From Paraburkholderia ginsengiterrae (GTDB lineage Bacteria; Pseudomonadota; Gammaproteobacteria; Burkholderiales; Burkholderiaceae), in the NCBI RefSeq assembly GCF_001645125.1, contig NZ_LXKA01000232.1, forward strand, positions 1 to 64,000: a DNA stretch of 64,000 bases, written 5' to 3'. Positions 48,449 to 62,701 of the stretch are shown here, one piece after another. Every line of letters begins with the position of its first letter. Position 1 is the first letter of the stretch. Under the pieces are notes generated by a model. It worked only from the letters and a program-made list of their open reading frames with translations, ran no database searches and was not told the origin of the DNA. A program made the position numbers and the translations under genes.

Positions 48449-49639
48449 TCAGACCATGGAGACAACGCTGTTGAGCAGCGTCTTCACGAGTACCGACTGG
48501 CGCGTCGCGCCGGTCTTAGCGAACACGCCGCGCAAGTGCGCGCGCGCGGTATTTTTGGTCATGCCGAGCGCGTCGGCGGCTTCGTCGAGCGTGAGGCCAT
48601 CGACCAGCAGCAGCGCGACCTCGGTTTCGGTCGGCGTCAGGCGAAACAGTTTGCGCAGCATGGCGCGTGAGTTTTTCGGCGAGCCTGCGGGATCGCGAAT
48701 AAAGACGGCGACGGCCGGCCGTCGCCGCTTGTCCTCGGCGCAATAGTTCAGCGGAATGGGACGGATCAGCACACTGAGCGGCATGTCGCCCGCCGGCCGC
48801 GACAAGGTGGTCGCCTCGACGCATGACGTAGCGGCGATCAGGTGGTTGTTGATGCCCGACTGGATCGCCTTCTGGAATTTGCGGTTTTCCAGCGGACAGT
48901 GCGCGTGCAAGGCGTCCTGGCTGACATAGATGCCGTCGCGCTTCGCGAACAGGCGATCGGCCGCGCCATTGCTCTTCATGATCTTGCCGTGTTCGTCGAG
49001 GATCACGGAGCCCACCAGCATGCGATCGATCGTGCCCGCGTACAGCGTGCGCTCGGATTCGAGCACATCCAGTATGGAGTGCAGATCAACGGCGCGTTTC
49101 AGATGCGGCAGAACAATGGTGATCAATGCCTTGTCGGCCTCGTCATAGTCGCGGCCGCGATGGGCCCGGCTGACAAAGAACGCGCACTCCACGCCGTCGT
49201 CGGTATGGATGTTGGCCGCGAGGATGTAGCGCAGATCGAGCGGCTTCAGGTATTGCAGATAGAAGTCGTGCTCACGCCAGGCGGCTTCGCCGAACAGTTC
49301 GTCCGCCGTGAGCACCTGACCCGCCGGGAGGCGGGTGAACGGACAGATCGCGTAGTAGTGTTCGCTGTACGAAGGCTCGCCCGGCAATAGCGTCCCGTAC
49401 GAGGACGCATTGACGATCAGGCCGGGCCGCTCGCTTGCCGGATTGCGCAGCACCAGCGTGACAAAACTGGCGTCGAGCCGCTGCCGGATCCATTCCAGCA
49501 GGCTCGACCATGGCGTCGTCTCTGTCGGCCCCTGATAGACGAGGCCGAGCAGCGCGCTCAGTTGCCGGGGGGCGAGCGCGGCGGCGTCGAAGCAATCGGA
49601 AGCGGTATTGCTGCAATCAGGCTGATGCTGCATCGACAT
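48449..49639 (-). CDS. LuxR-type (HTH_LuxR) transcriptional regulator
   Basis: 396 residues. The C-terminal ~65 residues are a LuxR DNA-binding domain: FRLTPTETEVALLLVDGLTL, then LGMTKNTARAHLRGVFAKTG. The N-terminal ~320 residues form a sensor with no autoinducer-binding signature; a PAS-like stretch is possible around 200-240 (DEHGKIMKSNGAADRLFA). It lies downstream of cysNC, in the same direction, 122 bp away, with two inverted repeats in between. Best candidate to read the palindromes shared by the cysD and DUF1214 promoters (inference). Confidence 0.9.
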   Translation of the reverse strand: MSMQHQPDCSNTASDCFDAAALAPRQLSALLGLVYQGPTETTPWSSLLEWIRQRLDASFVTLVLRNPASERPGLIVNASSYGTLLPGEPSYSEHYYAICPFTRLPAGQVLTADELFGEAAWREHDFYLQYLKPLDLRYILAANIHTDDGVECAFFVSRAHRGRDYDEADKALITIVLPHLKRAVDLHSILDVLESERTLYAGTIDRMLVGSVILDEHGKIMKSNGAADRLFAKRDGIYVSQDALHAHCPLENRKFQKAIQSGINNHLIAATSCVEATTLSRPAGDMPLSVLIRPIPLNYCAEDKRRRPAVAVFIRDPAGSPKNSRAMLRKLFRLTPTETEVALLLVDGLTLDEAADALGMTKNTARAHLRGVFAKTGATRQSVLVKTLLNSVVSMV

Positions 49640-49665
49640 GTCCAGCGTCTCCCATGGAACATGGC

Positions 49666-49710
49666 CTCAGGTTCGTGTTGCTTGGTTCGCCTCAATCATA
49701 CGAACCTGAG
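49666..49710. promoter_or_regulatory. inverted repeat upstream of the luxR-type gene
   Basis: CTCAGGTTCGT (49666-49676) and ACGAACCTGAG (49700-49710), a perfect 11-bp dyad with a 23-bp spacer, 27 bp before the luxR-type start. It could be an operator or a 5'-leader stem. Confidence 0.5.
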
Positions 49711-49712
49711 TG

Positions 49713-49751
49713 CCGCCCGCGTCGTCCGTTTGATCTAGACGACGCGGGCGG
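49713..49751 (-). terminator. perfect hairpin after cysNC
   Basis: CCGCCCGCGTCGTC pairs with GACGACGCGGGCGG (14 bp, 11-nt loop), 11 bp past the cysNC stop. There is no T-run, so it may slow or attenuate readthrough into the luxR-type gene rather than stop it fully. Confidence 0.5.
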
Positions 49752-49761
49752 GGTGGCCGTG

Positions 49762-51666
49762 CTAATCCGGCCGACCGCCGGCCAGCAGATGCGCGACGAT
49801 GCGCCCGGCGGCCTGTTCCGGTGTGTCGGCCGTGGTGTCGATACGGATCTCCGGGTGTTGCGGCGGCTCATACGGCGAGTCGATGCCGGTGAAATTCCTC
49901 AGTTCGCCGCGCCGCGCTTTCTTGTACAGCCCCTTGGGGTCGCGCTGTTCGGCGACGTCGATGGGCGTGTCGACGAATATCTCGACGAACATGTCTGGGC
50001 CGGCCAGCGCGCGCGCCATGTTCCGTTCGGCGCGGAAGGGCGAGATAAAGGACACCAGCGTGATCAGACCGGCGTCGGCCATCAGACGCGCCACCTCGGC
50101 CACCCGACGGATATTCTCGACCCGGTCGGCCTCGGAGAAACCGAGGTCCTTGTTCAAACCGTGGCGCACGTTGTCGCCGTCGAGCAAGTAGGTGTGCTTG
50201 CCGAGCGCGTGCAGCTTCTTCTCGACCAGGTTGGCGATGGTCGACTTGCCGGCGCCCGACAAGCCGGTGAACCACACAATGCGCGGCGTCTGATTCTTGA
50301 GCGCCGCATGGGCTTTGCAATCGACGTCGACGGCCTGCCAGTGCACGTTCTGCGAGCGCCGCAACGCGAAATGCAGCATGCCCGCGCCGACCGTATTGTT
50401 GGTCATCCGGTCGATGACGATAAAGCCGCCCGTATCGCGATTCTCCGTGTAGGGATCGAAGGCGATCGGCTGGTCGAGGCTGAGATTGCACACGCCGATC
50501 TCGTTGAGCTCGAGTGTGCGGGCCGCCATATGGTCGAGCGTGTTGACGTTGACCCGGTATTTCGGTTGCGCGCTCGTCGCGCCGACCAGCCGTGTGCCGA
50601 TCTTCAGCAGATACGGACGGCCCGGCAGCATCGGTTCCTCGCTCATCCAGACGAGTGTCGCTTCAAACTGGTCGGCGACCGCCGGCGGCGCGTCGGCGCG
50701 CGCGATCACGTCGCCGCGGCTGATGTCGATTTCGTCTGCGAGGGTGAGCGTGACCGACTGGCCGCACGCTGCCGTATCGCATTCGCCCGCCGCGGTGATG
50801 ATGGCCGTGATGCGGCTTTCCTTGCCGGACGGCAGCACGCGGATGCGCTCGCCGCGGCGGATGTCGCCGGAGACGATGTTGCCCGCATAGCCGCGAAAGT
50901 TCAGGTTCGGCCGGTTGACCCACTGAACCGGCAGACGGAATGGGGCGCTGCGTTGCGCGTCGTCTTCGATCGGCACGCTCTCCAGATACGTCATCAACGC
51001 GGGCCCGCGATACCACGGTGTGTTGGCGCTGGGTTCCGTGACGTTGTCGCCGCGCAGCGCGGACATGGCGATGCAGGTGATGTGCGCGAGGCCGATCTGG
51101 GCGGCGAACTCCCGATACTCCGCCTCGATCCTGTCGAACACCTCCTGCGCGTAGCCGACCATATCCAGCTTGTTGATCGCCACCACCACGCGCCGGATGC
51201 CGATCAGCGACACCAGGTAGCTATGACGGCGCGTCTGCGTCAGCACGCCCTTGCGTGCATCGATCAGGATGATCGCGACGTCGGCGGTGGAGGCGCCGGT
51301 CACCATATTGCGCGTGTACTGCTCGTGCCCCGGCGTATCGGCGACGATGAACTTGCGCTTATCCGTCGAGAAGAAGCGGTAGGCGACGTCGATGGTGATG
51401 CCCTGTTCGCGCTCGGCGGCGAGGCCATCGACGAGCAGCGCGAAGTCGAGCTCGCCGCCTTGCGTGCCGGCTCTCTTCGAATCCGCTTCGAGCTGGCTCA
51501 ACTGGTCTTCGAACAGCATCTTCGACTCGTACAACAGCCGGCCGATCAGCGTGCTCTTGCCGTCGTCGACGCTGCCGCAGGTGATGAAACGCAGCAGTCC
51601 TTTGGTTTGATGCACCGACAGATATTGCTCGATGTCGTCGGCAATCAGCGTGGAGACGTGTGCCAT
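49762..51666 (-). CDS. cysNC: sulfate adenylyltransferase subunit 1 / APS kinase fusion
   Basis: 634 residues. Residues 1 to about 445 are CysN, an EF-Tu-like GTPase with P-loop GSVDDGKST, the DTPGHEQY switch and INKLD; it drives ATP sulfurylase made by CysD. Residues from about 450 are CysC (APS kinase) with P-loop GLSGAGKST and [16 protein letters not shown], ending GGRPD. The fusion makes PAPS from sulfate and ATP in two steps. The ATG overlaps the cysD stop, so translation is coupled. No PAPS reductase or sulfite reductase gene is present, which fits a supply for sulfotransferases rather than assimilation. Confidence 0.96.
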
Positions 51667-52562
51667 CAGAAGTAGCCCTCCTGTTTTTTCTTTTCCATCG
51701 AACCGGCCGAATCGCTGTCGATCAGCCGTCCTTGACGTTCCGAGGTTTTCGCCAGCAGCATTTCCTGAATGATGCCGGTCAGCGTATCGGCTTCGCTCTC
51801 GATCGCGCCGGTGAGCGGATAGCAGCCCAGCGTGCGAAAGCGCACTTTCTTCATCTGCGGCACCTCATTTTTTCGCAGCGGCATGCGTTCGTCGTCGACC
51901 ATGATGAGCGTGCCGTCACGTTCCACGACCGGGCGCTCCCTTGCGAAATAGAGCGGCACGATCGGAATCTGATTCAGGTAGATGTATTGCCAGATGTCCA
52001 GCTCGGTCCAGTTCGAAATCGGAAACACGCGGATGCTTTCGCCCTTGCGTTTGCGCGCGTTATACAGGCGCCAGAGTTCGGGGCGCTGCATCTTCGGGTC
52101 CCAGCGGTGCTGTTCGGAACGGATCGAAAAAATGCGTTCCTTGGCGCGCGATTTTTCTTCGTCGCGGCGTGCGCCGCCGAATGCCGCGTCGAATCCGTAG
52201 TGGTCGAGCGCCTGTTTCAGCCCCTGCGTTTTCCAGATGTCCGTATGAACCGCGGAACCGTGGGTGAACGGATTGACGTTCTTTTCGATGCCTTCGGGAT
52301 TGACGTGTACCCGCAAATCAAGGCCGAGCCGTTCGACGGTCTGGTCGCGGAACGCGATCATCTCGCGGAATTTCCACGTCGTATCGACGTGCAGCAGCGT
52401 AAAAGGCGGCTTGGCCGGATAAAAGGCCTTGAGCGCGAGGTGCAGCATGACCGAACTGTCTTTGCCGATCGAGTACAGCATGACCGGGTTTTCGCATTCG
52501 GCCACCACCTCGCGCATGATGTGGATGCTCTCCGCCTCCAGCCGCTCCAAGTGAGTCAACAT
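51666..52562 (-). CDS. cysD: sulfate adenylyltransferase subunit 2
   Basis: 298 residues. The PP-loop ATP pyrophosphatase motif is [20 protein letters not shown] (about 29-48), and [15 protein letters not shown] with [14 protein letters not shown] are CysD signatures. With CysN it forms ATP sulfurylase, which makes APS. It starts at ATG 52562, and the palindrome at 52657-52668 lies about 95 bp upstream. Confidence 0.96.
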
Positions 52563-52652
52563 CGTGAGTCTCCTTTGTCGTTTGCAGGACCCCGTGACGA
52601 AGAGCCAGGGCCGCGCATGAAGGAGACAGTACCGGTCGGGCGGGTGTCGGTT

Positions 52653-52675
52653 CTTCGTCCGACCGGACTAAAAAA
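52653..52675 (-). promoter_or_regulatory. palindromic operator site A (cysD promoter)
   Basis: The core GTCCG-AC-CGGAC (52657-52668) is a perfect dyad. Read toward cysD it is TTTTTAGTCCGGTCGGACGAAG. Over 18 bp (TAGTCCGGTCGGACGAAG) it is identical to site C before the DUF1214 operon, in the same orientation to its gene. Confidence 0.7.
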
Positions 52676-52714
52676 GACAAGGGGACGGCGTGATCTGCGA
52701 TGGGTGAGCACGTT

Positions 52715-52984
52715 TTACGGGGGCGGGAGGCGATCAGGCAACGGCCGGTTCCGCGGCAAGCGCGGAAAGGTCAGGCCATCGTGGGCCACCGCCGCGTAAG
52801 CAGACTTGGTCATGGCGACACCGGCCGCGACGTTGCGGTGATACTTGACGAGCGCAATTGTGAGCCGGCCGGCGGGCGTCCTGTCTTCGTTGGCGCCGGA
52901 CTTGATGAAGCGGTTGCGCAGCGCGAGTGGGTCGATTTTTACGGGAGAGAACTGCGAGGCCGCCTCGGGATAGGCGTGTTGCAT
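52715..52984 (-). pseudogene. NADH:flavin oxidoreductase (OYE family) N-terminal remnant
   Basis: From the ATG at 52984 the frame encodes FSPVKIDPLALRNRFIKSGA, then ALVKYHRNVAAGVAMTKSAY and AVAHDGLTF. This is the FMN-binding start of old-yellow-enzyme family proteins (2,4-dienoyl-CoA reductase / BaiCD-like), which run to about 350-400 residues. After about 75 residues the similarity ends in unrelated Pro/Arg-rich sequence and stops. It lies upstream of cysD, beyond site A, in the same direction. I see no sign of the remaining 300 residues. Confidence 0.7.
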
Positions 52985-53276
52985 GCGTGGCTGCACTCGC
53001 CGTCGCCATCGGCTGCCTTCGCGCTTCTTCCCATGACAACGCGTCGCTGGTTGAGCAGCTACGAACCGTTGCACGCGAAGCCGCGTCGAACCTCCAGTTC
53101 GAACTGGGCCAGTTACGGGGACTGTGCGATGTGTCGATATCCGATCTGAAATTGCGTCAACCCCTCCAAGCCATCGACCTGTGTGCGGTCGGGCCGTCCA
53201 TATTCACGAGGCATTAACCCTGACTTTGGTATTCCAATAAAACTTCGTAATGCTAAGTTAACGTGCTTGACAAAAA
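52985..53276. other. stretch without recognisable gene
   Basis: The only open frame (52927-53217 +) gives a short Arg/Ala-rich then Leu-rich peptide with no known pattern. Composition becomes AT-richer near 53230, before the vgrG remnant. Confidence 0.35.
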
Positions 53277-53306
53277 TTGACCGAATTTTCGGTTCAATCC
53301 TATTTG
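53277..53306 (+). promoter_or_regulatory. possible promoter and dyad before the vgrG remnant
   Basis: TTGACC (53277-53282) and TATTTG (53301-53306) are separated by 18 bp. A palindrome ACCGAA-tt-TTCGGT (53280-53293) overlaps this -35. Weak. Confidence 0.3.
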
Positions 53307-53370
53307 ATTCGACCCCAAAGTTCGCTACCGTTCTGCTGGGCTATTCAGTGAACGTCTAGCAGGAGGGGGC

Positions 53371-54021
53371 TTGAGTCAGAAAAAAGATCTTACGCACCGG
53401 CACTACCATCTCGACATGCCACAGGCCAGCAGTGCCGAGCTGGCCGACATTTTTGCATTCGAGGGAGAACGGGCCATCGGGGAACCCGGTCGGTATGCGA
53501 TCCGGTTCACGCATCCGCAACCGGACCTGTCACGCACCGACTACCTGAACAAGCCTGCTGCGTTTGTGATCCAGCCCCCGTTCAATCCGCTCACGACGCT
53601 CAAGCCCGAAGCGGAACGGCGTGTGCAGGGGGTCATCACAAGCTTCAGCCAGCGCGGCAGCAGTCGCGACGAAACGACCTATGAGGTGGTGCTGGAGTCG
53701 CGCCTGGCGCTATTGCGCAATACGCCCAAGTGCCGGTTCTTCCTTGACAAGAGTTTCCCGGAAATCATCGAGCAGATCCTGCGCGAACACGGTTTCGACA
53801 GGATCCACGGCAGCTTCGAGTTCAACCTGTACCGCACCTATCGCAAGCGCGGTTTCGTGATGCAATGGGGCGAAGACGACCTGACCTTCATCACGCGACT
53901 GTGCCGCCGCTCCGGTATCTGGTTTGTTTGCGAGGAGGGCACCAGCGCGACGAGATCAGGAGAGAAGCATGGCGCTACTTGTCGCGGACCCTCTGGCGTA
54001 TCTACCGCTGGCTGCTGCTGA
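53371..54021 (+). pseudogene. truncated vgrG (type VI secretion spike), N-terminal part only
   Basis: From a TTG start (AGGAGGGGG just upstream) about 190 residues match the VgrG N-terminal, phage gp44-like region: RYAIRFTHPQPDLSRTDYLN, then RRVQGVITSFSQRGSSRD, DKSFPEIIEQILREHGFD and FITRLCRRSGIWFVCEEG. Full VgrG has 600 or more residues, with an OB fold and a beta-helical needle; those are absent. After about 53940 the frame carries unrelated sequence and stops at 54021. No other T6SS gene lies nearby, so this is an orphan, inactive spike. Confidence 0.82.
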
Positions 54022-54386
54022 GCATGTTGTCTCCGGCGATCATGATCGCAATGGGGATGACTTTCGACGGGGAGCCCGGCAGTAAGGCTGTCGTCTGGAT
54101 AGGGGGCGTCTTGCTGGCGTTCGTACCTTGCTGGGGCATCTGGATTTTCGTTCCAATCTGGCGTGACCATGTTGCCCAGCGACTGTATTTCGAGGACATC
54201 GCGGACGGCACCTGCCCGGATCGGGGCTGGCAGATTTCACGCGCGAACGGGTTGAAGTGGTACAGGAAACAGGGTTCGCCCTTGTGGATCAGTTCGAGGC
54301 GGGAACGCCCGTGGGCGCACCCTGCCGATGCGATTGCGCGCATGGAAGGCCGGGATCCACCGCCCCGGCAACGGACGAAGTGGTAG
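53946..54386 (+). pseudogene. membrane protein fragment fused out of frame to vgrG remnant
   Basis: In another frame than vgrG the sequence reads RDEIRREAWRYLSRTLWRIY, two hydrophobic helices (LLLSMLSPAIMIAMGM; VVWIGGVLLAFVPCWGIWIF) and a soluble tail with RLYFEDIADGTCPDRGWQIS, ending at 54386. The N-terminus seems to be lost at the junction near 53940-53946; ATG 54024 and TTG 53979 are possible later starts. It looks like a small vgrG-associated accessory or immunity-type membrane protein, but I do not recognise the family. Confidence 0.5.
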
Positions 54387-54397
54387 GAGTGGCAGGC

Positions 54398-54883
54398 CTA
54401 ACCCGCCTGCATCGCCCCTGCTGCGTGAAAAAGCGACTCAGCCCGCACCTTCAAACTGCGCGCAACCGCATCGAAGCCCTGGCGCACCCATTCCCCATGC
54501 GTTGCCATCACGACAGGCGCCGTCGGCCCCAGGAAGAGGTCGGTCGAGTAATACGTGCAACTCGCCTCACCGGTGGCCTCGATCACCTGATCGCGGCGCG
54601 CCGCATCTGGATTGCCTGCTGAAGGCGTCATTTCCCAAGACAACAGCGCCGGGCGGTCGAACGCGGCCAGATGCTCGACCACATGAATCAGTTCGCCCGG
54701 CACCGCGGGATTCGGCAGGTAAAGGTTCACCGGGTCGCCCAGCTTGAGCGTGGATTCGACCTTGACCGTATAGGGATTCCATTGCGGATAGGCGGCAAGA
54801 TCGGTCAACACGTCCCATACGAGCGACGCGGGAGCGTTGATCTCGACCTTGATCGAGGTAACCAGGTATTGCTCTGCGGACAT
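54398..54883 (-). CDS. SRPBCC family protein (polyketide cyclase-like)
   Basis: 161 residues from ATG 54883 (GGAGG 5 bp upstream). A START-like helix-grip fold: SIKVEINAPASLVWDVLTDL, then YPQWNPYTVKVE, a middle with HVVEHLAAFDRPALLSWEM, and the C-terminal helix VRQGFDAVARSLKVRAE. The hydrophobic pocket normally binds a polycyclic or lipid-like ligand. Divergent from the DUF1214-sulfotransferase operon and sharing its regulatory region (sites B and C), so it probably belongs to the same pathway. Confidence 0.9.
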   Translation of the reverse strand: MSAEQYLVTSIKVEINAPASLVWDVLTDLAAYPQWNPYTVKVESTLKLGDPVNLYLPNPAVPGELIHVVEHLAAFDRPALLSWEMTPSAGNPDAARRDQVIEATGEASCTYYSTDLFLGPTAPVVMATHGEWVRQGFDAVARSLKVRAESLFHAAGAMQAG

Positions 54884-54956
54884 GCAAGCCTCCATGGCAA
54901 GTGATGGTCGCGCGTCATAGCGCGCGGCCATCATGTCAGGGACGCACTGTCACGTT

Positions 54957-54977
54957 CCTCGTCCGGATGGACTAAAA
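54957..54977 (-). promoter_or_regulatory. palindromic operator site B (SRPBCC promoter side)
   Basis: GTCCGGATGGAC (54961-54972) is the same dyad with one mismatch. Read toward the SRPBCC gene it is TTTTTAGTCCATCCGGACGAG, matching site A in flanks and orientation. Its centre is 35 bp from that of site C. Confidence 0.6.
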
Positions 54978-54993
54978 ACGGGTAAACCCAGGC

Positions 54994-55011
54994 TAGTCCG
55001 GTCGGACGAAG
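54994..55011 (+). promoter_or_regulatory. palindromic operator site C (DUF1214 operon)
   Basis: TAGTCCGGTCGGACGAAG, core GTCCG-GT-CGGAC (54996-55007), is an exact 18-bp match to site A read toward cysD. It ends 57 bp before the DUF1214 start. Confidence 0.7.
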
Positions 55012-55068
55012 ATTGCCGGTTCGCACCACTTGTATCGTGCGCTTTCAAGAACACGATGGAGGTCCGGC

Positions 55069-56178
55069 ATGGCAGCACAGTCCAGCGAAGCGCAACTCCT
55101 TTCCGGTCAGACGTGGGCCGATTTCTGCGACACGCTAAAGCGCAGCGGGCAGCAGATTCTCCGCGCGGAAGCGCCGGGTGATGCGCTGACCCGCACCGAG
55201 GGTTTCCGTTATCTGAGCCGGCTGTTGCGGATCGCGCTTGAAATGCACGTGGAATTCGCGGACGCGGATTTTCCCGGATTCTTTTCGCCGTCGCATGAAA
55301 CCGCGAAGATCGGCGCGGATAACCCGGACAATCTCTATCAGTACGCACGCCTGAACGGCGCGCATGACTATCGGGTATCCGGGCGGCGGGGCACGGTGGC
55401 GTATCTGAGTTTCGGCACGCAGAAGGGCGGCTACGAAACCGACGGCAAGATGATCCAGACCGGCTTCCTGGATGCGAAACATCTCGCGGTCGATGCACAC
55501 GGCAACTTCGAAATCGTGCTAAGCCAGCAAGCGCACGAAGGCAACTGGGTGCGCATGGAGCCTGGCACCAACGCGCTAGTGGTGCGGCAAACCTTTCTCG
55601 ATCGCAAATCGGAGCAACCCGCTGAACTGAAGATCACGCGTCTTGGCTCCACCGACAAACCGGCTCCGCTCGACCCCGTGACGCTGCACGACGGCCTGAT
55701 GCGCGCGGCCGGCTTTGTCGAAAACACCGCGCGTCTTTTCGCGGATTGGGCGGGCGGCTATCAACGTCATGCCAACCAGCTGCCACCGGCGGACCAGGCG
55801 GTGTGCCAGGCAGTGGGCGGCGACCCCAACATTTTCTACTACCACTCGTACTGGGCGCTCGGTGACGACGAAGCGCTGGTGATCGACGTGGCTTCGGTTC
55901 CCGAGTGCGACTTCTGGAATCTGCAAATCAATAACTACTGGATGGAATCGCTCGATTACCGGCACCACACCGTCTGCATCAACAAGCACTCCGCGCGCTA
56001 TGACGCCAATGGCGGCGTCTCGCTGATGCTCAGTGCGCGCGATCCTGGCAAGCCCAATTGGCTCGATACGGCGGGGCATCGCAACGGCACGATGTGTCTG
56101 CGCTGGGTGGGCGCGAAGCAGCCTGTCCATCCCGTTGTGCGGGTCGTCAAATTCAACACGCTAGAGGAGGCTGCATGA
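55069..56178 (+). CDS. DUF1214 domain-containing protein
   Basis: 369 residues from ATG 55069 (GGAGG upstream). The C-terminal ~120 residues carry the DUF1214 pattern (YYHSYWALGDDEALVIDV, DFWNLQINNYWMESLDYRHH and NGGVSLMLSARDPGKPNW). The N-terminal half is beta-rich (YRVSGRRGTVAYLSFGTQKG). No signal peptide is visible, so cytosolic. Biochemical function is unknown. The stop overlaps the sulfotransferase start (ATGA), so both are made together, which suggests it handles the sulfotransferase's substrate or product. Confidence 0.85.
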   Translation: MAAQSSEAQLLSGQTWADFCDTLKRSGQQILRAEAPGDALTRTEGFRYLSRLLRIALEMHVEFADADFPGFFSPSHETAKIGADNPDNLYQYARLNGAHDYRVSGRRGTVAYLSFGTQKGGYETDGKMIQTGFLDAKHLAVDAHGNFEIVLSQQAHEGNWVRMEPGTNALVVRQTFLDRKSEQPAELKITRLGSTDKPAPLDPVTLHDGLMRAAGFVENTARLFADWAGGYQRHANQLPPADQAVCQAVGGDPNIFYYHSYWALGDDEALVIDVASVPECDFWNLQINNYWMESLDYRHHTVCINKHSARYDANGGVSLMLSARDPGKPNWLDTAGHRNGTMCLRWVGAKQPVHPVVRVVKFNTLEEAA

Positions 56179-57404
56179 CAACCGGCGCTGCCATTGAACA
56201 CAAGCTAGAGGTGGATCATCTGCTGGCGCTCGCGATCGAACGCTCTGGAGGCCTGACCGATTTCGGAAGCGGCAATTACCGCGAGGCCCTGGACGTGCTG
56301 TTCGATTCGTTGAACCGCGAAGCCAACCTGTCGGCGCAAGGCGAAGCGCTGCTGCACGACAAGGTGCTGGCGCAACTGGTCAACCGGCTGGTGATCGAAG
56401 ACTATTGCCGGCGCTACCCCGAGATTCTCGCGCAGTCGATCGACGATCCGCTTGTGATTGTCGGCTTGCCGCGCACCGGCACTACGCTGCTGCAACGCGT
56501 TCTGGCGGTCGACCCGCGCTTCCATTCGGCGGCGTGGTGGGAGACCCGCTACCCGGCGCCACGGCACGACGAAACACTCGAGAATCCGGCGTCGCGTATC
56601 GGCCTGGCGTGCGCGGAGGTCGATCTGATGATCCGCTATATTCCGCAGATTCTCGCGATACACCCGCTCGACGCGATGCAGCCCGACGAAGAGTTCATGC
56701 TGATGGAGCACTCGTTCATGTGCGCGATGGACTCGTACGCGAACGTGCCCAGCTATACCGCGTGGCTGGCGCAGCAGGATCAGACATCCGTCTACGAATA
56801 CCTGAAGAAGATGCTGCAATTCCTGCAATGGCAAAAGCGGCAGCGTGGCGTGCCGGCCGCGTCGCGCTGGATCCTGAAGACGCCGCAGCATCTGCACACG
56901 CTGGAACTGCTGTTCAAGGTTTTCCCGGGCGCGCAGGTGGTGCTGACTCACCGCGATCCGGCCATGACCATTCCGTCGATGGCCAGCATGGCGCACACGC
57001 TGTGGAAAATGTACGCCGATAACCCGGATGCCAGAGTTGTCGGTAATCAGTGGTCCTCGCAAATGCGGCGTGCGGTTCATCACGCCATGGAGGTGCGCGC
57101 CACGTTGCCTGACGAGCGCTTTCTCGACATCCGTTTCGAGGATACGGTGACCGATCCATTCGGCGTGATCGAGTCGGTGTACCGCTTTGCCGGCCTGCCG
57201 TTGACCAACGAGGTACGCGAAGCGATGGCCGCATGGCTCGCCGGGAACAGCCGGGACAAACGTGCCGCACACGGCTACACGCTGGCCGAGTTCGGACTCA
57301 GCGTGGAGCAACTCAGGCAGGACTTCGCGCCATACCGTCAGCGCCACATTCTGCCCGCGGCGGACGCAGCGGACCCGGCTGACGTGGCACACGTGGCGCA
57401 TTAG
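56175..57404 (+). CDS. PAPS-dependent sulfotransferase family protein
   Basis: 409 residues from ATG 56175, overlapping the upstream stop. The 5'-phosphosulfate loop is IVGLPRTGTTLLQRVLAVDP (95-114), the 3'-phosphate region is LTHRDPAMTIPSMASM, and a likely catalytic His/Glu region is MLMEHSFMCAMDSY. The C-terminus (about 385-409) is Ala/Asp/His-rich and probably disordered. It should transfer sulfate from PAPS to a hydroxyl or amine of a small molecule; the substrate is unknown. PAPS would come from CysD and CysNC, encoded 3.6 kb away under the same operator motif. Confidence 0.93.
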   Translation: MTTGAAIEHKLEVDHLLALAIERSGGLTDFGSGNYREALDVLFDSLNREANLSAQGEALLHDKVLAQLVNRLVIEDYCRRYPEILAQSIDDPLVIVGLPRTGTTLLQRVLAVDPRFHSAAWWETRYPAPRHDETLENPASRIGLACAEVDLMIRYIPQILAIHPLDAMQPDEEFMLMEHSFMCAMDSYANVPSYTAWLAQQDQTSVYEYLKKMLQFLQWQKRQRGVPAASRWILKTPQHLHTLELLFKVFPGAQVVLTHRDPAMTIPSMASMAHTLWKMYADNPDARVVGNQWSSQMRRAVHHAMEVRATLPDERFLDIRFEDTVTDPFGVIESVYRFAGLPLTNEVREAMAAWLAGNSRDKRAAHGYTLAEFGLSVEQLRQDFAPYRQRHILPAADAADPADVAHVAH

Positions 57405-57468
57405 CCCATCGCTCGGCGCGACGCGCCTGCGTAGAACCCTCCATTCAACGTCAGTACAGAGGAAAGCC

Positions 57469-57909
57469 ATGCCGCGCGATCTGCAGTACCTGCTCGATAA
57501 AACCGACATCTCCGATCTGCTGATCGACTACGGCACCGCGATTGATTCGCGCGATTTCGCCGCGCTGGATCGCATCTTCACCGCGGATGCCGTGATCGAC
57601 TACCGCGCCACCGGCGGCCCGCGCTGCACGCTGGAAGAGGCCCGGCGGTTTCTGGCCGAGGCCTTGCCCCAGTTCCCGCGCAGCCAGCACATGATGGGCA
57701 ACATCAGCATCAGGCTGCAAGGCGCGACGGCGACCGCCCGCACGCTGTGCCACAACCCGATGGTGATGCGCAAACCGGACGGCGGGGAGGAGGTGGTGTA
57801 CTTCGGCATCTGGTATGCGGACGAACTGCTGCGGACTGGCGACGGCTGGCGCATCCGCAGCCGGTCGCTCGAATTCTGCTATTCGGACAACTATCAAAGG
57901 AGTCTTTGA
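57469..57909 (+). CDS. SnoaL/NTF2-like protein (scytalone dehydratase type)
   Basis: 146 residues from ATG 57469 (GAGGAAAG upstream). A single cone-shaped domain: KTDISDLLIDYGTAIDSRDF, then FTADAVIDYRATGG and RTLCHNPMVMRKPDGGEEVV. The Asp in FTADAVIDY and the His in SQHMMGN occupy the usual catalytic positions of scytalone dehydratase / SnoaL_4 proteins. It is 64 bp after the sulfotransferase gene and 1 bp before the SDR gene, thus in the same operon. Confidence 0.88.
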   Translation: MPRDLQYLLDKTDISDLLIDYGTAIDSRDFAALDRIFTADAVIDYRATGGPRCTLEEARRFLAEALPQFPRSQHMMGNISIRLQGATATARTLCHNPMVMRKPDGGEEVVYFGIWYADELLRTGDGWRIRSRSLEFCYSDNYQRSL

Positions 57910-57910
57910 C

Positions 57911-58702
57911 ATGCTCATGCGAAACAAGGTGGTCGTGGTGTCGGGTATCGGTCCGGGCCTCGGTGTCAAGCTGGCGATCGAAGCGGCGCGCGAGGGCGCG
58001 CACGCCGTGGTGATCGCCGCACGCACCGCGGCGAAACTCGACGAGGCGGAACAGCGGATCCGCGAACTGGAGGTGGACTGCCAGGTGCTGAAGGTGACGG
58101 CCGACATTACCGACAAGCAGCAGTGCAAGCATCTGGCCGAGCGCGCAATCGGCCAATTCGGCCGGATCGATGCGCTGGTGAACAGCGCTTTCGTGCACGG
58201 CAAATTTCCCGAACCGATCGAAGACGCCGATCTGGACGGCTGGCGCGAGGTGTTCGACACGAATGTGTTCGGCACCATGAACCTGACGCAGGAAATCGTG
58301 CCGCACATGAAAAAACGCGGCAGCGGCGCGATCGTTATGATCAACACGCAGGCCGCGCGCAAACCGTTTCCGGGCGAAGCCGGCTACGCGGCGTCCAAAG
58401 GCGCGCTGGCCGTAGCGGTCAAATATCTGGCGAGAGAACTCGGGCCGCACGGGATCCGGGCCAACAGCATCCACATGGGGTGGATGTGGGGCGCGCCGGT
58501 GCAGGGCTATGTCCGGCAGGCCGCGGCTCAGTACAATATCCCCGAGGAGCAGATCATCGAGCCCATTGCAGCGAACATCGCGCTCGGCCACATTCCGACC
58601 GATGACGACTGCGCGAGGGCTGCGTTATTTCTGGTGTCCGATTACGCGAAAGTCATTACCGGTGCGACACTCGACGCCAACGGCGGCGATTTCATGGCAT
58701 GA
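57911..58702 (+). CDS. short-chain dehydrogenase/reductase
   Basis: 263 residues from ATG 57911 (AGGAG 8 bp upstream). The Rossmann glycine motif GIGPGLGVKLA replaces the usual TGxxxGIG, with the catalytic Ser in IVMINTQAARK (probably Thr/Gln variant region) and YAASK at about residue 157-161. The C-terminal half has SIHMGWMWGAPV and ATLDANGGDF. NAD(P)-dependent oxidation or reduction of an alcohol/ketone is expected. It closes the DUF1214-sulfotransferase-SnoaL-SDR operon. Confidence 0.92.
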   Translation: MLMRNKVVVVSGIGPGLGVKLAIEAAREGAHAVVIAARTAAKLDEAEQRIRELEVDCQVLKVTADITDKQQCKHLAERAIGQFGRIDALVNSAFVHGKFPEPIEDADLDGWREVFDTNVFGTMNLTQEIVPHMKKRGSGAIVMINTQAARKPFPGEAGYAASKGALAVAVKYLARELGPHGIRANSIHMGWMWGAPVQGYVRQAAAQYNIPEEQIIEPIAANIALGHIPTDDDCARAALFLVSDYAKVITGATLDANGGDFMA

Positions 58703-58742: not shown

Positions 58743-59831
58743 ATGGCAGGCAAGCATCAACACACCGGCGAGCACACCGGCGAGTACACCGGCGAGTACA
58801 CCCGCGCCGCCGGCGTGGACAACCCGGGCGGCACGCGCAACGCCGGCAATGCCGGCATTGCAACGGGGGCGGCCCACGTCTTCGCCTTCAACGGTGACGC
58901 GGACGGACTCTGCGCGCTACAACAATTGCGCCTCGCGGAGGCGCCGCAGGCGGCGCTCGTCACCGGCGTCAAGCGCGACATTCAGTTGTTGCGGCGAATC
59001 GAGGCCGGTTCCGGCGACCGGGTCACCGTGCTCGACGTCTCGCACGAACAGAATTGCGTGGATGTGCAGCGTCTGTTGGAGGCCGGTGTGCAGGTCCGCT
59101 ATTTCGACCATCATTTCGCCGGCGATCTGTGCGCGCATCCTTGCTTCGACGCGCATATCAACACCGCGCCCGACGTGTGCACGAGTTCGCTCGTCAACGG
59201 CTACCTCGGCGGACGCTATGTGCGCTGGGCCATCGTGGCGGCGTTCGGCGACGAGCTGCCGCAGCTCGGCGAGGCGCTGGCGCGCGCGCACGGACTCGCG
59301 CCGCGGACCATCGCATCGTTCGCCGAGCTTGGGCGCCATCTGAACTACAACGCGTACGGCGAATGCGTCGACGACCTGCACTTCGACCCGGCCGCGCTGG
59401 CCGAGGCGATGCTGCCGTTCGCCGACCCGGTCGATTTCATGCAGGACACGAACGTGCTGGCGGCGCTGTGCGAAGGCTATCGCGAGGATATGGGCAAGGC
59501 GCGGGCGCTGTGTCCCGAGCGGGCGTGCAACGGCGCCACGCTGGTCACGCTGCCGCACGAGGCATGGGCGCGCCGCGCCACGGGCGTGCTTGCCAACGAA
59601 CTGATGCAGAGCCGGCCGGACCACGCATTGGCGGTGCTGACGCCAAAATCCGGCGGCGGTTTTGTCGTGAGCGTGCGGGTGCCAACGGGCAGGCCGCTCG
59701 GCGCCGACGATTTTTGCCGCACCTTCGAGACCGGCGGCGGCAGAAAGCGGGCAGGGGGCATCAATCATCTGCCGGAGACGGAGGTCGAGCGGTTCGTCGC
59801 GCGTTTCGAAACGGCATTTGGCGTGGCGTGA
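58743..59831 (+). CDS. DHH family phosphoesterase
   Basis: 362 residues from ATG 58743 (GAGA upstream); GTG 58728 is an alternative with GGAAG upstream. After a ~40-residue low-complexity leader, the DHH motifs follow in order: FNGDADGLCALQQL, VTVLDVSHEQN and YFDHHFAGD, with a later ARRATGVLANELMQS and a C-terminal DHHA1-type end GGGRKRAGGINHLP. Such enzymes hydrolyse oligoribonucleotides, pAp (3'-phosphoadenosine 5'-phosphate) or cyclic dinucleotides. pAp is the by-product of sulfotransferases, which makes this gene interesting here (inference). It starts 40 bp after the SDR gene. Confidence 0.88.
   Translation: MAGKHQHTGEHTGEYTGEYTRAAGVDNPGGTRNAGNAGIATGAAHVFAFNGDADGLCALQQLRLAEAPQAALVTGVKRDIQLLRRIEAGSGDRVTVLDVSHEQNCVDVQRLLEAGVQVRYFDHHFAGDLCAHPCFDAHINTAPDVCTSSLVNGYLGGRYVRWAIVAAFGDELPQLGEALARAHGLAPRTIASFAELGRHLNYNAYGECVDDLHFDPAALAEAMLPFADPVDFMQDTNVLAALCEGYREDMGKARALCPERACNGATLVTLPHEAWARRATGVLANELMQSRPDHALAVLTPKSGGGFVVSVRVPTGRPLGADDFCRTFETGGGRKRAGGINHLPETEVERFVARFETAFGVA
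58761..58808 (+). repeat. 12-bp tandem repeat in the DHH gene
   Basis: Four 12-bp units (CACACCGGCGAG twice, TACACCGGCGAG, then a decayed TACACCCGCGCC) encode HTGE HTGE YTGE YTRA near the N-terminus. Being a multiple of 3, changes in copy number would not shift the frame. Confidence 0.85.
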
Positions 59832-60036
59832 CAGGCGTGACGGGCGTATGCGGCCATTGCGCGACCTGACCCCGTAACGACGCGGGCGGCTGGCACCATC
59901 GAATGGTCGTGACTGGCACTACGCGCAGGCGCCCAAAGCTGCGACGATTCGGCCCCTCTCCTGAAGATGTCGTCGTGCGCATACGGTAGCAATCGATTTG
60001 ACCTTCGATTCACCGTTTTCTGCGTACCCGCGACTC

Positions 60037-60786
60037 ATGAACTTCGCCGACTTTGCCGATCTGACCGGCAATCCCGCCATCCTGGGATGTCTTGCCCTGA
60101 TTACGATCGTCGCCGGCATGGCAAAGGGTCTTACCGGATTTGGTGGCGCGCTCGTCATGGCGCCGTTGTTCGGGCTGCTGATTCCCGCGCCTGAGGCCGG
60201 TGTGCTGATCGTGCTGATTCACTTTACGACCTCGCTGCAAGGCGTGCGAAGCTGGGCGGGCGCGGCGCGCTGGCGCAAGGTGATACCGCTGGCGCTCGTC
60301 GCCATGGGCTGCACCGCCGTGACGACGCACTGGATGGCCAGCGAGAGCGCCGCCGATATTCGCCGGCTTGTGGCGGTCGCGGTCCTCGCTTCCACCGTGA
60401 TGCATATAAGAGGGTGGCGCTGGCTGCACGATAGCGGCTGGCGTCCCACCTTCACCGCCGGCGCGATGAGCGGCGCACTGACCGCGCTGGGCGGCATCGG
60501 CGGGCCGCCCGCCGTCTACTATCTCAACCGCATTGGCCAGGGCGCCGCGCTGCGGGCCAATCTGCTCGCGTATTTCGCGGTGCTCTATGTGGGCGTGGTG
60601 GCGCTGCTGGTCGGTGAGCATCAGGTTCATGCACCGCAGCTCTCGTCCACGGCGTTGCTCGTGCCGGTCTTCGCACTCGGCGTCGCCGCCGGCGAGCGGC
60701 TGGGCAAGCGCCTGCCGCTGCGCGGGCTGGAGCGCCTCGTGAGCGGCTTGCTGCTGTGTTCCGGGCTGGTCGCGCTGTTGACGTGA
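60037..60786 (+). CDS. TSUP family permease (TauE/SafE-like)
   Basis: 249 residues from ATG 60037 (a TTG at 59998 would add 13); no clear ribosome site. About eight membrane helices in two halves, each with the family pattern: GMAKGLTGFGGALVMAPLFG in the first and GALTALGGIGGPPAVYYLNR in the second. TSUP permeases export sulfite, sulfonates or other organic anions, or import them. It lies 205 bp beyond the DHH gene, so may be a separate unit. A link with the sulfation genes is possible but not shown. Confidence 0.9.
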   Translation: MNFADFADLTGNPAILGCLALITIVAGMAKGLTGFGGALVMAPLFGLLIPAPEAGVLIVLIHFTTSLQGVRSWAGAARWRKVIPLALVAMGCTAVTTHWMASESAADIRRLVAVAVLASTVMHIRGWRWLHDSGWRPTFTAGAMSGALTALGGIGGPPAVYYLNRIGQGAALRANLLAYFAVLYVGVVALLVGEHQVHAPQLSSTALLVPVFALGVAAGERLGKRLPLRGLERLVSGLLLCSGLVALLT

Positions 60787-61315: not shown

Positions 61316-62701
61316 ATGTCCACTGCCGTATTTCTCGGTTTGATTCTGTTCTCCCTGTATCTGGCGATACGCTCGAAGAAAGGACATGGCGCGCAGAGCG
61401 TGCACGATTTCTTCGTCGCGTCCCGGCAGTTCGGCGCTTATCTGGTCTTTTTTCTCGCCGCCGGCGAAATCTACAGCATCGGCACGATGGTCGGCTTTCC
61501 GGGCGGCATCTATGCCAAGGGGCCGACCTATGGCGTCTGGTTTCTCGGCTATATCCTGCTCGCGTATCCCGTCGGCTATTTCATCGGGCCCAAAATCTGG
61601 CAGGCGGGCAAGCGCTATAACGCCATTACGCTGCCGGACCTGTTCAAAGGTCACTTTGGCAGCCGCACGCTGGAACTCGTCGTGGCCGCCTCGGCAATCC
61701 TGTTTCTGCTGCCGTGGGGCGAGCTGCAGTTCACCGGTCTCGTCGCCGCGTTCAAAGGGCTCGGCTGGAATTTTCAGCCGCTGTATCTGATCCTCATCTC
61801 CGCGGTGATGGCGTTCACGTATATCGCCATCTCGGGGGTGCGTGCCTCGGCCTATATATCCATCCTCAAAGACGTGCTGATGGTCGTGGCGATCGTGATT
61901 ACGGGGATCGCCGTCGCGTGGGAATCCGGTGTCACGGAGGTCTTTCACGCAGCCAGCCTGCACGTCAGCAACAGCATGAACTCCAGTCAGCTGACGTTCT
62001 CGATGAGCACCATGCTGTTCCAGTCGATGGGCTTCTACGTGATGCCGTTCGCGGTGCAGGTCTTTTTCACGGCCACGAGCCCGAATACGATCCGGCGCAC
62101 CCAGATTGCCATGCCGCTGTACATGCTGATGTATCCGTTCCTCGTGATTGCGTCGTACTACGCGATCAGTCAGAACCTGCATCTGGCGTCGCCGAACGAA
62201 GCCTTCTTCGCGGCGGCGATCCGTCTGCTGCCGGGCTGGCTGCTGGGGTTGGTGGCGGCCGGCGCGTCGCTCTCGGGTTTGCTGGTCCTGACCGGCATCT
62301 GCCTTGCCATCGGCCCGATCGTCACGCGCAATCTGCTGCCGAGCATGCCTGAGAACCGGCAGAAAGCCAGCGCGAAAGTGGTGATCGTGGTCTATCTGCT
62401 GGCATCGATCGTAATGACATTGCTGACGCCGAATCTGATGCTCACGCTGATCAACACCGCGTACTATGGCGTGACTCAGTTCTTCCCGGGCGTGATGGTC
62501 ATTCTGTTCTCGCTGCGCGTCAAGCCGTCTGCCGTTGCGGCGGGGATTCTGACCGGCCAGATACTGGCGATCATTCTCTACCTGCTGCATATCGATCTTG
62601 GTGGTTTCAATCTGGGGCTGTTTTGCCTCGCCATCAATATCGCGGTCACGGTGGTGCTGAACCTCGGCTCGAAGCGCAAGCCGGTGCATGCGTTGTCCTA
62701 A
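61316..62701 (+). CDS. sodium:solute symporter (SSS) family protein
   Basis: 461 residues with about 12-13 transmembrane helices. Family features are FFVASRQFGAYLVFFLAAGE in helix 1, then TLPDLFKGHFGSRTLELVVA, and LVAAGASLSGLLVLTGICLA in the middle. It imports an organic solute with Na+, together with the DUF3311 protein. The amidohydrolase gene downstream may act on the imported compound. Substrate not predictable from sequence. Confidence 0.92.
   Translation: MSTAVFLGLILFSLYLAIRSKKGHGAQSVHDFFVASRQFGAYLVFFLAAGEIYSIGTMVGFPGGIYAKGPTYGVWFLGYILLAYPVGYFIGPKIWQAGKRYNAITLPDLFKGHFGSRTLELVVAASAILFLLPWGELQFTGLVAAFKGLGWNFQPLYLILISAVMAFTYIAISGVRASAYISILKDVLMVVAIVITGIAVAWESGVTEVFHAASLHVSNSMNSSQLTFSMSTMLFQSMGFYVMPFAVQVFFTATSPNTIRRTQIAMPLYMLMYPFLVIASYYAISQNLHLASPNEAFFAAAIRLLPGWLLGLVAAGASLSGLLVLTGICLAIGPIVTRNLLPSMPENRQKASAKVVIVVYLLASIVMTLLTPNLMLTLINTAYYGVTQFFPGVMVILFSLRVKPSAVAAGILTGQILAIILYLLHIDLGGFNLGLFCLAINIAVTVVLNLGSKRKPVHALS

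Follow-up and report, generated by a model that had tools for sequence, protein, structure and literature searches.

Steroid sulfonation beside genes for its own cofactor is known from Bacteroides, where BT_0416 is described as a cholesterol sulfotransferase that lies next to Bt_0411-0415, putative genes for synthesis of 3′-phosphoadenosine 5′-phosphosulfate (PAPS), and where Bt_0412 and Bt_0416 are both induced by cholesterol (PMC9417993). LuxR-type regulation of steroid genes is likewise known, as the regulator TeiR/TesR is described as required for their induction in Comamonas testosteroni (PMC6678751). Further, comparative genomics places proteobacterial steroid degradation in Burkholderia, Cupriavidus, Ralstonia, Pseudomonas and Comamonas, and Table 2 of that study lists C. 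necator ATCC 17699 and P. resinovorans as testosterone-positive (PMC4810484). The window analysed here, a stretch of 64,000 nt from Paraburkholderia ginsengiterrae (contig NZ_LXKA01000232.1, positions 1 to 64,000), contains a sulfation locus whose closest precedent is the BT_0416 cluster; common to both is a sulfotransferase adjoining its own PAPS synthesis genes. The locus encodes a LuxR-type regulator (LuxR_w), a CysN-CysC fusion, CysD and an SRPBCC protein on the minus strand, and an operon for DUF1214, sulfotransferase, SnoaL-like, short-chain dehydrogenase (SDR) and DHH-like proteins on the plus strand. Overall, the analysis indicates that it is probably a steroid-linked sulfonation regulon with its own PAPS supply and its own removal of 3′-phosphoadenosine 5′-phosphate (PAP), serving as an overflow or detoxification branch.

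An earlier sequence-only reading of the window had proposed that one palindromic operator joins these genes, and the three sites that it named were found in place. All three are exact copies of an oriented 16-bp motif, TAGTCC-N3-CGGACGA, and each points toward its gene: operator A (TAGTCCGGTCGGACGA; 52670-52655, that is 52655..52670, minus strand) lies before cysD, operator B (TAGTCCATCCGGACGA; 54974-54959, that is 54959..54974, minus strand) before the SRPBCC gene, and operator C (TAGTCCGGTCGGACGA; 54994-55009, plus strand) before the DUF1214 operon. The reading of TAGTCC...GGACGA toward the genes and the identity of operators A and C over 18 bp (TAGTCCGGTCGGACGAAG) were equally borne out. 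With up to one mismatch, the oriented motif occurs 3 times in the window against a mean of 0.05 expected (100 shuffles, largest count 1). The bare 12-bp dyad occurs 9 times at the same tolerance against 5.8 expected, with 12 of 100 shuffles reaching 9; it was dropped as evidence in its own right because its frequency in the window is at chance level.

The sequence-only reading had called for a genome-wide search. Three of the four exact copies in the genome (8.53 Mb, 393 contigs) lie at this locus, but the motif is about as frequent as its control, the motif read backwards, which has 3 exact matches in the same genome. Plain genome-wide counts were dropped for this reason, and it is the placement of the sites, not their number, that is informative. 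In particular, 4 of the 5 one-mismatch copies lie at 247-279 kb of another contig, C328, within 31 kb of each other; a one-mismatch site at C67:105382 is inside a predicted gene. An exact operator at C334:3679 (L012; also L055:15080) precedes a small, probable membrane protein of about 118 aa that has no NCBIfam match in the two copies inspected, and exact sites at L056:14663 and L057:5104 stand at a similar distance from LipP1.

The C328 region encodes KshA (with a KshA_C domain), thiolases, KstD-like and HsaA-like proteins (the last two with best NCBIfam matches below the equivalog cut-offs) and a FadD3-family CoA ligase that is above its cut-off; judged by these genes, it is a 9,10-seco steroid pathway cluster. 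One of its one-mismatch sites stands ahead of kshA, another ahead of hsaA and a third between the genes for a LuxR protein and a LipP1-like esterase; the fourth (C328:266330), at the fadD3 3′ end, is not assigned to any gene. Across the 250 family genomes sampled, an HsaA homologue (E 1e-100 or better) is present in 32/32 genomes that carry the sulfotransferase and in 5/218 that do not (Fisher 1.7e-35, uncorrected for kinship). The locus is also found in 80 named genomes, and among 30 of these, chosen mostly because no steroid gene was seen in the flanks, 28 carry an HsaA homologue at 49% identity or more, while one small metagenome-assembled genome has none. HsaA, KshA, KstD or FadD3 lies within the flanks themselves in 19/80 named loci (six in Cupriavidus, twelve in Pseudomonas, and Aestuariicella), and further Cupriavidus loci adjoin LipP1 and a steroid-type LuxR. 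In two Pandoraea genomes (G540, G569) and in G609, the cysDNC operon stands among steroid genes with a site, TAGTCCGGTCGGACGA, that is identical to window operators A and C. The locus occurs almost exclusively in genomes with steroid pathway genes, and the hydrophobic, perhaps polycyclic substrate suggested earlier becomes more specific: co-occurrence points to a steroid acceptor.

The operator mostly travels with the locus. When named genomes were scanned with a DUF1214 alignment, 105 loci were confirmed and 80 kept; genes were counted by tblastn on the flanks at identity thresholds of 45-70%, and some contigs end early. DUF1214 and sulfotransferase genes are present in 80/80, SDR in 77, CysNC in 69, CysD in 68, DHH in 65, SRPBCC in 64, LuxR_w in 62 and SnoaL in 21, and in 69/80 the flanks contain CysD or CysNC and so tie the sulfotransferase to PAPS synthesis. 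These loci span Paraburkholderia, Burkholderia, Cupriavidus, Ralstonia, Pandoraea, Collimonas, many Pseudomonas, Comamonas and some gamma-proteobacterial genomes; in Paraburkholderia, Burkholderia, Cupriavidus, Ralstonia and Pseudomonas, operators mostly precede DUF1214, cysD or SRPBCC. The family sample was preferred for counting, since at order level the sulfotransferase (E 1e-90) was found in only 2/399 genomes; in the family (E 1e-80 or better) it occurs in 32/250 genomes and 5/25 genera. Exact operators are present in all 32 positive family genomes (73 sites) and in 21 of the 218 others (22 sites).

Among 59 same-genus genomes, the window's own included, close orthologues of LuxR_w (at least 74% identity) and of the sulfotransferase (at least 76%) occur in the same 5, near each other; in five further genomes there are only more distant matches. 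Two of the five positives (L047, L048) keep the gene order of the window. In L049 and L050, SRPBCC and cysD are displaced by several kb, and DUF1214, SRPBCC and cysD each retain an operator with at most one mismatch. Good support for the proposal that the sulfotransferase operon and the PAPS genes are joined by a single operator comes from this conservation across genera, from the retention of sites after rearrangement, and from a fixed distance to a -10-like element at the DUF1214 and cysD promoters.

That distance emerges when promoters are aligned on the operator. An operator within one mismatch precedes 69/91 DUF1214, 49/81 cysD and 45/72 SRPBCC genes, counted as distinct upstream regions; 17, 11 and 22 such regions, respectively, have no site within two mismatches. 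The DUF1214 (57) and cysD (49) promoters so aligned have T24, A25 and T29 in common, a -10-like hexamer (TAnnnT) 23 bp past the site, which is not clearly common at that distance to the 43 SRPBCC promoters. In the window, TACTGT (52626..52631, minus strand) follows operator A by 23 nt and TATCGT (55033..55038, plus strand) follows operator C by 23 nt; CATGAT (54930..54935, minus strand), 23 nt after operator B, is a weak candidate, as TAnnnT is not common to other SRPBCC promoters. The fixed distance at the DUF1214 and cysD promoters puts the operator centre near -43, where a LuxR-type class II activator sits.

The candidate activator is LuxR_w (396 aa; 48449..49639, minus strand; GerE 3.1e-5), whose C-terminal LuxR/GerE helix-turn-helix (HTH) covers residues 333-384 and scores 24 bits against a cut-off of 23.5. 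It is 49% identical over its full length to the LuxR of the C328 steroid cluster, and in the LuxR tree 71 LuxR_w orthologues form one clade (support 0.996) together with one other tip. The choice of this neighbour as the regulator is favoured by co-conservation (5/59 genus genomes, 62/80 named loci), but weakened by paralogues whose HTH regions are nearly identical to its own. A weaker operator-like site (TAGATCAAACGGACGA; 49722..49737, minus strand) with 2 mismatches precedes LuxR_w, making autoregulation possible; sites with at most two mismatches occur in 65/72 LuxR_w upstream regions. A degenerate variant, TAGGCC(A/G)AACGGACGA, found ahead of LuxR_w in many loci of Pseudomonas and in some of Cupriavidus (for example L166:6071), suggests weak autoregulation. 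Elsewhere in the genome, contig C339 has two more LuxR paralogues (165934-167034 and 179649-180776; L051-L053) and a second HsaA (85% identical), pointing to another steroid cluster; no operator with at most one mismatch was found in the 55 kb inspected there.

The operators of the two gene sets are related and differ in a consistent manner. Among 118 sulfation sites (at most one mismatch, before DUF1214 or cysD), position 7 is a purine in 118/118 and position 11 is G in 107; among 21 steroid sites (before HsaA or KstD), position 7 is C in 20/21 and position 11 is A in 16. These counts come from related sequences and are not independent, and from them we infer two paralogous activators with diverged operators. 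With up to two mismatches, a site precedes HsaA in 20/24 cases, KshA in 4/9, KstD in 4/14, LipP1 in 8/23 and FadD3 in 0/21; a single regulon over all steroid genes was rejected on the FadD3, KstD and KshA counts.

The gene families named by the sequence-only reading (GerE/LuxR, CysN-CysC, CysD, SRPBCC, DUF1214, Sulfotransfer_3, SnoaL_4 and SDR) all find profile matches. The CysN-CysC fusion, combining the large subunit of sulfate adenylyltransferase with adenosine 5′-phosphosulfate (APS) kinase, is encoded at 49762..51666 (minus strand; PRK05506, 1078.5 bits, cut-off 715), and CysD at 51666..52562 (minus strand; TIGR02039, 515.8 bits). This CysD is a locus-specific second copy, and is additional in 12/12 genomes tested; the other CysD of the genome lies on contig C383, which has no exact or one-mismatch operator, and a general cys regulon was rejected on that ground. 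The sulfotransferase (Sulfotransfer_3; 56175..57404, plus strand; Pfam 4.1e-43) matches positions 1-215 of the 216 in PF13469 with 148.6 bits (cut-off 27) and has sequence relatives among solved chains (PDB 2zq5, 3.3e-52; 2z6v, 4.9e-49). Its PAPS-dependent activity is likely because the locus carries dedicated PAPS genes. The DUF1214 protein (55069..56178, plus strand; Pfam 3.3e-8) is a close relative of a solved Burkholderia cenocepacia protein of unknown function, 6ANS (E 1.2e-189, 73% identical); the fold search returned 6ANS and, more distantly, VPA0735/VPA0106, and gave no functional lead. The SnoaL-like (SnoaL_4) protein (57472..57909, plus strand; Pfam 2.8e-27) matched only uncharacterised chains in the PDB, and the SDR (57911..58702, plus strand) is of the PRK07890 type (353.8 bits, cut-off 258). 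The SRPBCC (Polyketide_cyc2) gene is annotated at 54398..54934 (minus strand; Pfam 1.5e-10), with its true start probably near 54883. A remnant of the old yellow enzyme (OYE) family, at about 52766-52951 on the minus strand, was recognised by eye from the reading frames only; in two relatives (L049, L070), an intact homologue stands at the equivalent place between SRPBCC and cysD; matches of the L049 copy to OYE/FadH families fall short of the equivalog cut-offs. Between cysD and SRPBCC, a truncated VgrG (53371-54021, plus strand; N-terminal 216 aa) is perhaps a later insertion, as none was seen at that position in L047 or L048. Downstream of the operon are a TauE/SafE-type exporter (59998-60783) and a sodium:solute symporter (61316-62698).

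The operon extends past 58702, where the sequence-only reading had ended it: a DHH-like phosphoesterase gene (58743..59831, plus strand) begins 40 bp later on the same strand and is the last of the operon; a DHH gene is present in 65/80 named loci. The Pfam scores of its product are below cut-off for both DHH (16.4 bits against 28.1) and DHHA1 (16.6 against 25.9), and PDB sequence searches with the protein and its profile gave no match. The predicted structure has the DHH-DHHA1 fold and comes closest to the PAP phosphatase 8A8K, in a tie with RecJ. Across 12 orthologues, D52, D54, D98, D122-H123-H124 and D170, the metal-ligand columns, are invariant; they were matched to the ligand pattern of PMC10322725 by motif and not by structural superposition. 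CysQ adjoins the locus in 5/5 Comamonas loci, all of which are without DHH, and 10 other DHH-less loci show no CysQ either. The fold and the ligand columns make the window protein a candidate bacterial PAP phosphatase of the DHH type that would serve a sulfotransferase. At its N-terminus (58743-58810) the gene carries a short repeat in frame (GEHTGEYTGEYT), within a tail that is unconserved and of low confidence.

A working scheme can be drawn from these elements. A steroid or degradation intermediate would activate LuxR_w, a relative of the steroid-cluster LuxR, which would bind TAGTCC-N3-CGGACGA near -43 at three promoters and switch on cysD-cysN/C, the DUF1214-sulfotransferase-SnoaL-SDR-DHH operon and SRPBCC. 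The cysD-cysN/C operon would supply a dedicated PAPS pool, from which the sulfotransferase would pass the sulfonate to a hydroxyl of a steroid or of a 9,10-seco pathway intermediate. The SDR probably prepares or reverses the acceptor hydroxyl, the DUF1214, SRPBCC and SnoaL proteins may handle or modify the hydrophobic substrate, and the DHH enzyme would destroy the PAP left by the reaction and so keep it from inhibiting the sulfotransferase. Ketosteroid reduction by OYE and SDR ahead of sulfonation would fit the intact OYE of two relatives. The purpose, most likely, would be to turn accumulating hydrophobic steroid intermediates into soluble sulfate esters.

Several observations weigh against a steroid-linked regulon under LuxR_w. 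P. solitsugae (G047) has the locus without a close HsaA (36% for its only match) and is a real exception, and Comamonas has sulfation genes without operator or LuxR_w. The former would suit a non-steroid acceptor (a lipid, hopanoid or secondary metabolite), the locus merely sharing hosts and a LuxR family with steroid degradation, as would the differences between sulfation and steroid operators at positions 7 and 11 and the placement of locus and HsaA on separate contigs in the window genome and in Burkholderia such as G342. This is improbable given the co-occurrence with HsaA (32/32 and 28/30), the adjacency or embedding among steroid genes in Cupriavidus, Pseudomonas and Pandoraea, and the relatedness of the two operator sets. 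Control of the promoters by the LuxR paralogue of the steroid cluster instead of LuxR_w, with the locus a part of one steroid regulon, is unlikely but deserves a real share of belief: the HTH regions are nearly identical, the operator types overlap, and the LuxR near the locus in Pandoraea and G609 belongs to neither close type (53% to the LuxR of C328). Against it, LuxR_w is co-inherited with the locus, and position 7 separates the two sets of related sites almost completely. That the motif arose by chance as a palindrome, or serves sulfur assimilation in general, can be given almost no credence; the frequencies of the bare dyad and of the reversed pattern would permit it, but the oriented motif exceeds its expectation in the window, is conserved upstream of the locus genes, and is absent, at up to one mismatch, from C383 with its other CysD.

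A different role for the sulfonate is also conceivable, though doubtful: as an activating catabolic step, it would make a hydroxyl into a leaving group that the SnoaL-like or DUF1214 protein eliminates, so that a blocked hydroxylated steroid enters the 9,10-seco pathway. The sulfotransferase does share its operon with a SnoaL-like protein and an SDR, the locus is often clustered with degradation genes, and the intact OYE of a relative partially matches BaiCD (137 bits, cut-off 825); with OYE, the gene set resembles bile-acid dehydroxylation enzymes. However, SnoaL is outside the core (21/80 named loci), its PDB relatives are uncharacterised, and some HsaA-bearing genomes have no locus. The boldest version, in which sulfate-activated deoxygenation draws on a private PAPS pool, DUF1214 and SnoaL carry out the processing, and the locus answers to a LuxR activator of its own, which parted from the steroid regulator alongside its operator, is a long shot. 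The evidence as a whole favours the steroid-linked regulon with an overflow or detoxification role.

Steroid-degrading bacteria help to remove hormones and bile acids from the environment. If the scheme is true, part of the steroid counted as degraded may exit as sulfate esters, invisible to assays of free steroids. Further, the operator motif can be used for mapping steroid-linked regulons, and the locus gives the unknown family DUF1214 (6ANS) a setting. The sequence-only reading had missed the steroid cluster, the DHH gene and the paralogue whose operator is a variant one; its statement that no pathway with this gene set is described is consistent with limited searches of openly licensed literature, which found no description of the module, the operator or the steroid-degrader link and no paper on DUF1214 and sulfotransferase together, and which are weak evidence of absence.

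The host genera of the comparative genomic survey overlap with those of the locus, and its main text contains no word beginning with "sulf" (PMC4810484). The PAP phosphatase 8A8K, a DHH-family enzyme of Methanothermococcus thermolithotrophicus that serves assimilatory sulfate reduction, is also described as one that does not align with other DHH proteins by sequence (PMC10322725). It has in common with the window protein the DHH-DHHA1 fold, a metal-ligand pattern of the same kind, a similar length, and ATP sulfurylase and APS kinase genes nearby; the two are 12% identical, and the partner of the window protein, whose PAP phosphatase activity is putative, is a sulfotransferase. TeiR/TesR resembles what is proposed for LuxR_w, a LuxR-type regulator tied to steroid degradation. 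In C. testosteroni ATCC 11996, a one-mismatch site (TAGTCTGATCGGACGA) lies upstream of an HsaA homologue (L227:9669) and may be a TeiR/TesR binding site; the best LuxR match in that strain, which may or may not be TeiR, shares 34% identity with LuxR_w. LuxR_w sits with sulfation genes, whereas those of Comamonas are without the operator. The steroid substrate of the BT_0416 cluster is known, while that of the window locus is put forward from co-occurrence. The BT_0416 host belongs to the gut Bacteroidota, which are not known as steroid ring degraders, whereas loci of the window type reside in genomes with steroid degradation genes. Unlike the BT_0416 cluster as described, the window locus combines a Sulfotransfer_3 enzyme and a CysN-CysC fusion with a LuxR regulator and its conserved operator, and with DHH, DUF1214, SRPBCC, SnoaL and SDR proteins.

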